NCBI GenBank assembly: GCA_030428865.1
Contig: JAUIEK010000002.1
Coordinates: 62,001 to 126,000, forward strand
DNA: 64,000 nt
Direction of reading: 5' to 3'
Origin: Bacteroidia bacterium
GTDB taxonomy: Bacteria; Bacteroidota; Bacteroidia; Flavobacteriales; Flavobacteriaceae
Position 1 is the stretch's first letter. Every line of letters starts with the position of its first letter. Below are positions 48,459 to 52,121 of the stretch, piece by piece. The translations under genes and the position numbers were made by a program. Below the pieces are notes generated by a model. The model searched no databases, was not told the origin of the DNA, and saw only the letters and a list, made by a program, of their open reading frames with translations.

Positions 48459-50087
48459 TTAAAGTGTATCATTTTTGTCTAAGTCGTTCTCGCAATCTGA
48501 GCAGTCTAATCCTTTTTGAGTCATTAAAAAATAATGATTTACCATATCCTCATCATAGATGTTGTCTGTATTGTAAACATGATATAAGAAAGAACTGGTG
48601 GAACTGTCAAAAAATATAGTATTGCCCTCTGGTAAGAAAAATGTTACGAAAACGGCTTCATCTTTAGCATAATTGTTTAAATCAGATAAAAAATAGGAAT
48701 CTAATGTTAATGCGTTATCAGTAAATATATAGTTATACTTTATCTCTGATGCATTTTTTTGAGCTTTGGTTATATTTCGACCGCTAGACCTTTTTCTAAT
48801 TTCTAAATAAGCATTGCCCGTTTTACTTTCTTGAACATCTAATTTTACGTAGTTTGAATAAATCGTTGTTTTATCATTTATATAAACCTCTTCGTGATTA
48901 TCTCTAGATCTTATGTTTTCTTGATAATACAAATCATTATTATTAGCCATTGTTATAGTTAGTGTATCTTTTAGTTTAAGATCAATGGACTTTTTCTCTA
49001 TAAAATTACCCGATCTTGCGTTACTCGTTCCAAACTCAATAGCAGAACTAATAACTACTAATAAAGCAACTATCCATATTCCAATAAGAGTTAAAGAAGT
49101 CGTTTTATTGAATTGTCTTACATTACTAGATAAAATTCGTAAGCCTAAAACAAATAATAATAAAAATGGGAATCCTACTAAGATTAATACACAGATGCCT
49201 AATATCCAATGTGGAACAGAAGATTCGTAAAAGAAAGGCAATGTGTGAATATCATGTAATCCCATAAATTCAAAACTTCCTATAGAAAAAGCAGCAATGA
49301 TGAATGATATGATTACAATTGCGGAAACCAAAACAAGTATAAAGCCAATGAACTTTCCAATCATTTTAAAGAATGCTACGATAATCTTCCCGATTACGTC
49401 TATAAAATCTTGAAAGCCCGACTGTGCTTTTCTACCGTTTTTTTTTATTCCGTCATTAACTTTCTTTGAAACTTCGTTAGCACCTTCTTTTATGGTATCT
49501 TTCATTGAACTAAACTCTTCACGAATTTTTTTTTCAATATTATCGATGTTAACGGCTTCTCCTTCCATTTGAAGCTTTTCAGTAGTAGTAGTAGCTTCAG
49601 GTGTAATAATCCAAAATATGATATATGCAAGCAAACCAATGCCACTAAAAATAGTAGTTAAAATGAAAGCCAAACGAATCCAAACAACATCAACGCCTAG
49701 GTAGTAACCTAATCCAGAAGCTACACCTCCTATAAATTTACCATCACGATCTCTGTAAAGCTTCTTGTTAGAACTGGTTCTTCGATAAGAAGTTTGGTTA
49801 GCTTCTGAAAAATCAGCATCAGCTTCTGAGTATGCCTCAGGCTCTCCCATTATTTTTATGATGTCATTAATATCCTGCTCATTAACAACCTGTCTAGAAT
49901 CTGTTATTTTTTCTGATAATAACTCACTAATTCGTGTTTCTATATCAGAAATAATTTCATTTTTCCCTTGCGGATCATCACTTAATGACTTTGCAATAGC
50001 ATCTAAATACCGTTTCAATTTTTGATAGGCATTTTCGTCTATATGGAAAAAATATCCACCTAAATTTATATTGATTGTCTTATTCAT
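48459..50087 (-). CDS. PspC domain-containing membrane protein
   Basis: 542 aa; KLYRDRDGKFIGGVASGLGYYLGVDVVWIRLAFILTTIFSGIGLLAYIIFWIITPEA. Confidence 0.93.
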   Translation of the reverse strand: MNKTININLGGYFFHIDENAYQKLKRYLDAIAKSLSDDPQGKNEIISDIETRISELLSEKITDSRQVVNEQDINDIIKIMGEPEAYSEADADFSEANQTSYRRTSSNKKLYRDRDGKFIGGVASGLGYYLGVDVVWIRLAFILTTIFSGIGLLAYIIFWIITPEATTTTEKLQMEGEAVNIDNIEKKIREEFSSMKDTIKEGANEVSKKVNDGIKKNGRKAQSGFQDFIDVIGKIIVAFFKMIGKFIGFILVLVSAIVIISFIIAAFSIGSFEFMGLHDIHTLPFFYESSVPHWILGICVLILVGFPFLLLFVLGLRILSSNVRQFNKTTSLTLIGIWIVALLVVISSAIEFGTSNARSGNFIEKKSIDLKLKDTLTITMANNNDLYYQENIRSRDNHEEVYINDKTTIYSNYVKLDVQESKTGNAYLEIRKRSSGRNITKAQKNASEIKYNYIFTDNALTLDSYFLSDLNNYAKDEAVFVTFFLPEGNTIFFDSSTSSFLYHVYNTDNIYDEDMVNHYFLMTQKGLDCSDCENDLDKNDTL

Positions 50088-50424
50088 CTTTCGTTGATTT
50101 TTTGCTTGTTACTTGGTTTACAGCGGTAATTAAATTATGCCACGTTTTATTTAATTCTTTTAAAAACATGGTGCCATTTTCTGTTAATACATAGTATTTT
50201 CTTGGTGGTCCAGAAGTAGATTCTTCCCATCTATACGATAATAATCCTGCGTTTTTTAAACGAGTTAGTAACGGATAAATAGTTCCTTCTACCACAATCA
50301 TTTCTGCACTTTTTAGCGAAGAAAGAATTTCAGAAGTATATGCATCACCGTGTTGTAGGATAGATAAGATGCAATACTCCAGAACTCCTTTTCGCATTTG
50401 TGCTTTTGTGTTCTCTATCTTCAT
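50080..50424 (-). CDS. PadR family transcriptional regulator
   Basis: 114 aa; GVLEYCILSILQHGDAYTSEILSSL...VEGTIYPLLTRLKNAGLLSYRW...GPPRKYYVLTENG. Confidence 0.95.
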   Translation of the reverse strand: MKIENTKAQMRKGVLEYCILSILQHGDAYTSEILSSLKSAEMIVVEGTIYPLLTRLKNAGLLSYRWEESTSGPPRKYYVLTENGTMFLKELNKTWHNLITAVNQVTSKKSTKDE

Positions 50425-50433
50425 GTGGTTTAA

Positions 50434-50871
50434 TTATTTTAAAAACTTGATTGTTAGCGGATACTTATAGTTTTCTCCTTTATTTGCTTTAATGGCAGCT
50501 AAAATGATTAGAGCAAATTTTATAATTCCAATAATGCCAACTAAAGATGAAATGCCAATAAATCCAAAAAGATCACCCATTCCAAAGTCGATATCAAAAT
50601 CTACATTATGATGCCAATTTCCTCTTAGGCTATCAAAAACAGATCGCAGAAAAAATGGAATAAAAATTAAGCTGGCTAAAAACATATAAATACTATAACT
50701 AATATTAAAATTAACAGCTTCTTTACCTTGGTTATCTAAAAATGCACTTCTATTTTTTAGCGTTTGCCAAACAATTAGAGGAACAACAATACTTCCGAAA
50801 GGGAATAAATATCCTGCAAAAGCAGAGATATGAATTAAAAAAGCATTTGTGTTTTCACTATTATTACTCAT
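50434..50871 (-). CDS. DUF4870 domain-containing membrane protein
   Basis: 145 aa; HISAFAGYLFPFGSIVVPLIVWQTLKNRSAFLDNQGKEAVNFNISYSIY. Confidence 0.9.
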   Translation of the reverse strand: MSNNSENTNAFLIHISAFAGYLFPFGSIVVPLIVWQTLKNRSAFLDNQGKEAVNFNISYSIYMFLASLIFIPFFLRSVFDSLRGNWHHNVDFDIDFGMGDLFGFIGISSLVGIIGIIKFALIILAAIKANKGENYKYPLTIKFLK

Positions 50872-50903
50872 GATTAATTTAATTTCTATAATACTTTACT
50901 TTG

Positions 50904-50945
50904 CAAATATATATCTAAAAAATGGTATTATGCAAAACATAGTAC
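50904..50945 (-). promoter_or_regulatory. Bacteroidota-type promoter of the DUF4870-PadR-PspC operon overlapped by a dyad
   Basis: Minus-strand TTTTG (50933-50937), 21-nt spacer, TATATTTG (50904-50911); dyad GTATTATG-caaaa-CATAGTAC (50925-50945) centred on the -33 element. Confidence 0.55.
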
Positions 50946-51101
50946 TGAATTTTAACAAATTTTAACAAATAGAACTATCATTAATTTGTGGTATTATACC
51001 CCCAAAAAGAAAACGCTATACCCGTAAAAACCAAACGCAAATAAATATAGTTGATAAAAAGAGCATCTTTTCTCAGTACTTATAAGGCTTTGGTGCATTT
51101 T

Positions 51102-51134
51102 TTTGCATTTGGACTTCGTAAAACGAAATGCAAA
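51102..51134. repeat. Bulged hairpin containing an inverted copy of the 15-mer TTTGCATTTCGTTTT
   Basis: TTTGCATTT-ggacttcgtaaaacg-AAATGCAAA; AAAACGAAATGCAAA at 51120-51134. Confidence 0.75.
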
Positions 51135-51326
51135 TAAACAGTTATTTAGCGATAGCGAACCGATATTACTAATCTCGATTTAGACCCTTTTTAAATTGTT
51201 ACAGATATTATATACGCAATATGCGAAAACAATAGGGTTTTTCAGGTTTAGAAAAGGCATTATTATATAATTTTTTGATTAGAAATAAATCGATTTAATG
51301 TTTCAAATTTTAGCATTAGGGTGAAG

Positions 51327-51350
51327 TGTAGGATGTAATGTAGGGTGTAA
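51327..51350 (+). repeat. 12-bp imperfect tandem direct repeat
   Basis: TGTAGGATGTAA / TGTAGGGTGTAA (11/12). Confidence 0.7.
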
Positions 51351-51599
51351 AAACATTGATTTGATATACTTGTTATTACACCTTTAATGTAGCTTGAAAC
51401 CGCTTAAATGATTTTAAATAGTGTTATGTTATATATTTATAAAAACAATGAGATAAAAGTGGTCTAACAAATAGAGAGACTTACATTTTGATTCCACTTG
51501 TATCAAAGTAACTTTTGTCTATTTTTCTTTGAGCAAACACAAACTGGGCGATTATTAATAGTCTTGGTTGTGTTTGTTTTTTATATTTACCTAAAATTA

Positions 51600-51636
51600 T
51601 TTGCATTTCGTTTTAAAAACCTTTGCATTTCGTTTT
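51600..51636 (+). repeat. Two direct copies of TTTGCATTTCGTTTT
   Basis: Exact 15-mers at 51600-51614 and 51622-51636; third inverted copy at 51120-51134. Confidence 0.85.
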
Positions 51637-51665
51637 CGCGATTATAAATTCTTTTAAAGAACCTT

Positions 51666-52121
51666 ATGAAGATAAAACCCAGTAATATTAACACTTTCAT
51701 GTTTTTTAAACTACCATTAGCTTGGTGGGGAGGAGTTAGAGTAAAAAGTATAAATAATTTATCTTGTATTGTCCGAATTAAGCATAAGTGGCTAAATCAA
51801 AATCCTTTTAAATCAATGTTTTGGGCAGCTCAAGGAATGGCTGCTGAAATGAGTACAGGTGTTTTGGTAATGAAAACGATTTCTGAATCAGGGAAGAAAG
51901 TTTCCATGTTGGTAATTAATCAAAGCGGAACATTCACAAAAAAAGCGACGGGTTTAATTCACTTTGAATGTAATGACGGAGATTTAGTTTCGGACGCTAT
52001 AAAAAAATCTGAACAAACAGGAGAAGGACAACTAATTACAATGAAATCAAAAGGAGTAAACTCAGATGGAGTTTCTGTTTCTGAATTCGAATTTCAATGG
52101 AGTTTAAAAGTGAAAAATTAA
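51666..52121 (+). CDS. DUF4442 (hotdog/thioesterase-like) domain protein
   Basis: 151 aa; LPLAWWGGVRVKSI...KHKWLNQNPFKSMFWAAQGMAAEMSTGVLVM. Confidence 0.8.
   Translation: MKIKPSNINTFMFFKLPLAWWGGVRVKSINNLSCIVRIKHKWLNQNPFKSMFWAAQGMAAEMSTGVLVMKTISESGKKVSMLVINQSGTFTKKATGLIHFECNDGDLVSDAIKKSEQTGEGQLITMKSKGVNSDGVSVSEFEFQWSLKVKN

Follow-up and report, generated by a model that had tools for sequence, protein, structure and literature searches.

The 794-bp gap that separates the genes for a DUF4870 membrane protein and a DUF4442 protein in the window (the whole stretch of 64,000 nucleotides analysed) very probably contains a gene-less remnant of a Mu-like transposable phage, ie a natural mini-Mu that arose by internal deletion. 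The insertion extends left end to right end over 652 bp (50995-51646, + strand), running TATACCCCC...CGATTATA, and its termini match those of related prophages and of the isolated phage TCUEAP3. It is a defective derivative of a known group of Bacteroidota Mu-like transposable phages. The original prediction drew attention to the gap for its repeated 15-mer and its lack of a convincing open reading frame; the longest ORF is indeed 49 aa or less. Two of the explanations it offered, a remnant mobile unit and protein-binding sites, are borne out in outline in the analysis described here, and the other two, attC-like cassette boundaries and a structured ncRNA, are not.

The host locus and its empty site

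On the left of the gap, on the minus strand, are the DUF4870 gene (50434-50871, Pfam PF09685), which is conserved beside the PadR and DUF4442 genes, and the gene for a PadR-family regulator (50080-50424, Pfam PF03551), a host anchor gene present in 146 of the 168 genomes of the genus. The right neighbour, on the plus strand, is the DUF4442 gene (51666-52121, Pfam PF14539), assigned to the host by synteny. This divergent arrangement is conserved across the genus. The spacing between DUF4870 and DUF4442 is 151-235 bp in 18 congeners, compared to 794 bp here; subtracting the 652-bp insert leaves 142 bp of host DNA, close to the empty-site length. Only approximately the first 100 bp of the gap is conserved; when the gap was used as the blastn query, positions 1-104 were matched in most of the congeners screened, and the alignment corresponds to the promoter region of the DUF4870-padR operon (50875-50971, - strand). 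The insert is missing from this interval in all congeners examined. The synteny check that had been proposed thus shows the gap, at the level of sequence, to be a lineage-specific insertion relative to its relatives, and the constant length that had been named as evidence against a mobile unit is not observed, the length of the region differing between relatives.

The distance between the PadR and DUF4442 genes was surveyed by reading the position tables of approximately 120 genomes in which a single contig carries both, and nearly all fell between 536 and 920 bp. The outliers were this genome (1242 bp), G058 (36,486 bp), G060 and G132 (about 1.03-1.06 kb) and six genomes whose distance measures 2.07-2.24 kb; G124 is a further exception, its PadR and DUF4442 genes not being adjacent. 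A phage right end was sought in those six and in G060 and G132, and none was detected in these eight long-gap genomes. Phages were rejected as a general cause of variability in the DUF4870-DUF4442 gap; the gaps of approximately 2 kb represent extra host genes, without a phage end. At six loci (L101-L106, in G085, G091, G084, G081, G129 and G007, respectively) there is an additional gene upstream of DUF4442. In some congeners it encodes a protein of 429-513 aa, with the frame apparently broken in G084; in G129 and G007 the product is a symporter-like protein of 482-483 aa, and DUF4870 is not detectable there.

The insertion parts DUF4442 from its usual upstream DNA. The DNA that intervenes (51530-51665) includes a terminator-like hairpin as well as the phage right end, and DUF4442 may therefore now depend on a new promoter. 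The hairpin (51534-51582, + strand, -9.8 kcal/mol, z -4.2) is long, is followed by T6 and lies just inside the right end of the element. It was not called in a strict terminator scan, which returned nothing. A terminator-like hairpin occupies a similar position near the right end of the G178 prophage.

Ends, repeats and iterons compared with full prophages

The related prophages were found through the iterons described below and then through a transposase. At locus L059, in a MAG that belongs to a different genus of the family (G183 = G429), a repressor gene is followed by genes for a MuA-like transposase (703 aa) and a MuB-like ATPase; the three products are classed as an S24/CI-type repressor, phrog_310 (1e-35) and phrog_296 (5e-33). 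The two junctions of the G183 prophage are on separate contigs, and it is therefore only presumably complete. With the L059 transposase as query, full-length copies were found in the congeners G178, G085, G008 and G058 and fragments in others; elsewhere in the family there was a relative in G547 and a fragment in G502. The G058 prophage, of about 35.8 kb, has genes for portal, terminase, protease, major head, tape-measure and baseplate proteins, and its transposase is 53% identical to that of G183. The genome studied here has no match to the L059 transposase, and the element therefore cannot move by itself.

At host-phage junctions the left ends of the prophages start TATAACCC, TATAGGGC or TATAACCCCC, and in G183 TACCCCCC; the right ends close with CGATTATA. 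The left terminus of the window element, TATACCCCCAAAAAGAAAACG (50995-51020, + strand), corresponds to TATAACCCCCAAAAAGAAAA in G058 and to TATACCCCCTAAAATAAAATG in TCUEAP3, and the C-rich start TATA(A)CCCCC is common to all three. An L1-like site lies about 11 bp in and is weak. The right terminus at 51646 reads CGCGATTATA. The last 45 bases of the element match the right ends of G183, G178 and G547 at 39, 36 and 35 positions, respectively, whereas the best match to these ends elsewhere in the window is 27/45; the 29/45 obtained with G085, taken alone, does not exceed chance. By these alignments both ends of the element are shown to be homologous to the ends of full Mu-like prophages.

The 15-mer TTTGCATTTCGTTTT occurs exactly at 51600-51614 and 51622-51636 (+ strand) and at 51120-51134 (- strand), as had been reported. 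These are the only exact copies in the 2.26-Mb genome, all of them in this gap and spanning 517 bp. A first-order Markov model predicts 0.04 occurrences, and the copy number is thus far above the composition-expected frequency that would have made the repeat trivial. Nor does the motif stand near other, orphan genes, as had been suggested for a genome-wide check; it is confined to this single locus. The only one-mismatch match elsewhere in the genome (G000:C3:63365) is in apparently coding sequence. A single isolated exact copy was present in 4 of 60 sampled congeners, and in the two of these that were read, G022 and G042, it too lies in apparently coding sequence. The identity of the outer pair extends beyond the 15-mer to 19 bp (51119-51137 and 51597-51615, 100%).

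Judged from sequence and position, the 15-mers are most likely transposase-binding sites: R2 (TTATTTGCATTTCGTTTT, 51597-51614, + strand) and R1 (51622-51646, + strand, with the right terminus as TTTGCATTTCGTTTTCGCGATTATA) at the right end, and an inverted L2 near the left. The opposite orientations of the left and right copies follow from the structure of a Mu-type transposon, whose two ends are mutually inverted. In Mu, R1 and R2 are 22 bp apart and L2 is about 111-132 bp in. The right-end pair, represented here by the 15-mers at 51600 and 51622, is spaced by exactly 22 bp beside the terminus in seven of seven right ends compared, and, of the 168 genomes of the genus, only this one and G178, at its prophage right end, show the R1-R2 pattern itself. 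At the left end, the inverted 15-mer (51120) stands about 126 bp in. Sites at a similar offset, about 105-125 bp from the left terminus, are GAACGAAATGTAAAT in G178, about 106 bp in, and a weaker one in G058. By analogy, the architecture of the element resembles a Mu transpososome substrate and would work like one.

The bulged hairpin originally described at the inverted copy does fold as single-stranded DNA (-8.6 kcal/mol, z about -3), and forms because a second, opposing half-copy at 51102 faces the site at 51120; the half-copy (51102-51110) and the L2-like putative site (AAAACGAAATGCAAATAAA, 51120-51138) together occupy 51102-51138 (+ strand). A degenerate putative copy, AAAACCAAACGCAAATAAA, lies at 51027-51045 (+ strand) and is 89% identical to 51120-51138. 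The inverted copies do bracket approximately 480 bp, as noted at the outset, but the element itself is larger, extending from 50995 to 51646.

Three 12-bp iterons, TTAGGGTGAAGT, GTAGGATGTAAT and GTAGGGTGTAA (51316-51350, + strand), are the presumed repressor operator. Within the genus the 35-bp iteron pattern is found only here and in the G085 prophage, and outside it in the L059 prophage of G183. In both prophages the iterons have the same sequence as here and lie between the left end and the repressor gene; at L059 that is between the host DUF4870 gene and the prophage repressor gene. Iterons of differing sequence occupy the same place in G058, G178, G008, G547, G502 and TCUEAP3, and three repeats are present at this place in all the prophage left ends examined. 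The comparison shows sequence homology between the iterons of the element and those of full Mu-like prophages. Their sequence differs between phages even where the flanks are near-identical, as in G085 and G008, which is as expected if the repressor of each phage reads its own operator, and we infer that the iterons form a repressor-binding operator. The near-identical left-end DNA of L076 (G085) and L078 (G008) carries iterons of GTAGGGTGCAAT type and ATGGAGTGCCTT type, respectively, a complete difference that looks like a swap of immunity specificity.

A search of genome contigs with the iteron pattern returned eight matches, of which one (L059) was informative; a scan of viral contigs was empty. 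Two of the others (Rheinheimera and Rhodobacteraceae) look like chance and were set aside, as were five runs of (TAGGGTGAAAAG)n in apparently coding DNA. These runs, from distant bacteria (L057, L058, L060, L062 and L064), have the same 12-bp period and immediately precede a helix-turn-helix-like stretch; they are a curious recurrent repeat with no relation to the phage operator.

Homology to phages on the left side of the element is firm up to the iterons, continues weakly as far as about 51371 (E 0.04, G502) and picks up again at about 51570. No homology to the compared phages was detected in the middle stretch (about 51377-51569), and therefore the deletion junction cannot be placed. A blastn comparison of the insert with phage and plasmid records gave nothing useful, only a weak match to a Microcystis plasmid, and only the iterons emerged from a six-frame search for decayed phage genes. 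Most of the short matches to the insert in congeners are in unrelated coding or intergenic DNA, the informative ones being in G085, G178 and G012.

Origin of the element and alternative readings

The element lies at a site that is empty in relatives, has termini with paired putative transposase sites homologous to the ends of transposable phages, and carries operator repeats of the kind found between the left end and the repressor gene, the repressor gene itself having been lost. A MuA-like DDE transposase gene is present in the related full prophages and in neither the element nor its own genome; the element is therefore a deletion derivative and not a phage. In the sequence of events we propose, a Mu-like phage would first have integrated near the DUF4442 promoter, in the intergenic region of the divergent DUF4870-DUF4442 pair. 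Nearly all of its genome of roughly 35 kb would later have been deleted, the loss beginning immediately right of the iterons and stopping a little inside the right end, and 652 bp would be left. What remains of the left end would be the terminus, the L2-like site and the three 12-bp operator iterons, fused to a right end consisting of the terminator-like hairpin, R2, R1 and the terminus. The 15-mers would be binding sites for the MuA-like transposase of the phage. Having no transposase gene, the element would be inert in this genome; a related infecting phage could in principle act on its ends. Both the origin by internal deletion and the present inactivity are deductions of ours.

Target-site duplications do not complete this account. 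Mu duplicates 5 bp on insertion and B3 6 bp; the flavobacterial Mu-like prophages studied here have 4-bp duplications, which are perfect in five of them: GATT (G058), TTTG (G085), GTTT (G178), TCAT (G183) and TTTG (G547). They were seen at the junctions L074/L075, L076/L077, L079/L086, L059/L073 and L090/L091. The window element has no recognisable duplication, being flanked by GTAT on the left and AATT on the right; another AATT stands 8 bp further to the left, perhaps by chance. The missing duplication is a real gap in the argument, and mutation, a small deletion in one flank or an origin from two phage copies could account for it.

The same absence weighs against regarding the element as an active non-autonomous satellite, ie a MITE-like mini-Mu selected as a minimal transposon that uses the transposase of a helper phage, rather than a dead relic, and perhaps titrating repressor or transposase so as to hinder infecting phages. 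In Mu the end sites suffice for transposition in trans, and it is true that both ends, the 22-bp site spacing and the three operator iterons are intact here with all else gone. However, the element is present as a single copy in its own genome, which has no resident helper, and there is no second copy among the 168 congeneric genomes; we consider a satellite unlikely. Further from the data is a cassette boundary, integron-like or otherwise, with attC-like folded sites for a tyrosine recombinase. The bulged hairpin does fold plausibly, but its motif is restricted to one locus, the insertion sits between conserved neighbours without a cassette array, and both termini match the ends of transposable phages instead, so that the chance of this being correct is close to negligible. 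Non-coding DNA directly upstream of DUF4442, with some stable hairpins, could also be a structured ncRNA or a regulatory leader of that gene. An Rfam scan of the window gave no match, the DNA is missing from every congener examined, and all the stretches of firm homology are phage ends or iterons; a leader or ncRNA is thus very improbable. The remnant of a Mu-like phage remains the preferred explanation.

A recurrent insertion site and the known transposable phages

Mu-like phages are usually thought to insert nearly at random. The prophages of G058 (L079, G058:C48) and G183 (L059/L073), which are related, both lie between DUF4870 and DUF4442 in the orientation of the window element. Three related Mu-like elements, from three species and two genera, therefore share one interval and one orientation. 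The chance of two of six prophages (the window excluded) falling in one intergenic region of approximately 2000 is about 4 in a million, by our own simple arithmetic on a small sample of six. Elsewhere, the G085 prophage is beside a zapB-like gene and that of G547 upstream of one that is lipoprotein-like. A restriction of these phages to intergenic sites was considered and dropped, as the G178 prophage is inside a TPR gene and that of G008 occupies the final codons (3' end) of a gene for an rRNA methyltransferase. Integration hotspots have been documented for some Pseudomonas transposable phages (PMC5977238), and it is plausible, on a small sample, that the DUF4870-DUF4442 interval is another. 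The larger proposition, that the interval is a cross-genus hotspot for Bacteroidota Mu-like phages and that the element is a minimised, helper-dependent satellite retaining both ends and the operator, is distinctly improbable; if true, it would describe a group of transposable phages with a preferred site and orientation.

Elements of this kind are already known; what is unusual is that a 652-bp remnant at a recurrent site has kept both ends and the operator. The gap can now be read as a fossil that displays the presumed operator and the two ends with their presumed transposase sites. The flavobacterial Mu-like phages concerned have been little studied, and exact termini should help in finding other remnants. 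Related insertions at one site in three species also pose a testable question about phage target choice.

The closest isolated phage is Elizabethkingia phage TCUEAP3 (OK632026), a complete 33-kb phage, in contrast to the gene-less window element. The phage record opens with 31 foreign bases and continues TATACCCCCTAAAATAAAATG, beginning with the same TATACCCCC as the element, and its right end is likewise CGATTATA; the termini are therefore confirmed independently by an isolated phage. It also has three 12-bp iterons near the left end, like the element, together with MuA-like and MuB-like genes at the left, the transposase being 41% identical to that of L059. The hankyphage is reported to package about 30 bp of host DNA at its left end (PMC12135933), to which the 31 bp ahead of TATACCCCC can be likened. 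Hankyphage p00 and related Bacteroides phages are complete, Mu-like and transposable in Bacteroidota hosts; identity with the L059 transposase is only 23%. Flavobacterium columnare phage fF4 (PMC7761591) and Winogradskyella phage Peternella (PMC8776804), likened by description, are complete Mu-like transposable phages of Flavobacteriaceae. In form the element resembles the mini-Mu derivatives of Mu, which also consist of two phage ends without genes, with the right pair of sites 22 bp apart and a left site approximately 110-130 bp in. Those are laboratory constructs, whereas the window element is natural and belongs to a distant phage group in which the relatives have 4-bp rather than 5-bp duplications.
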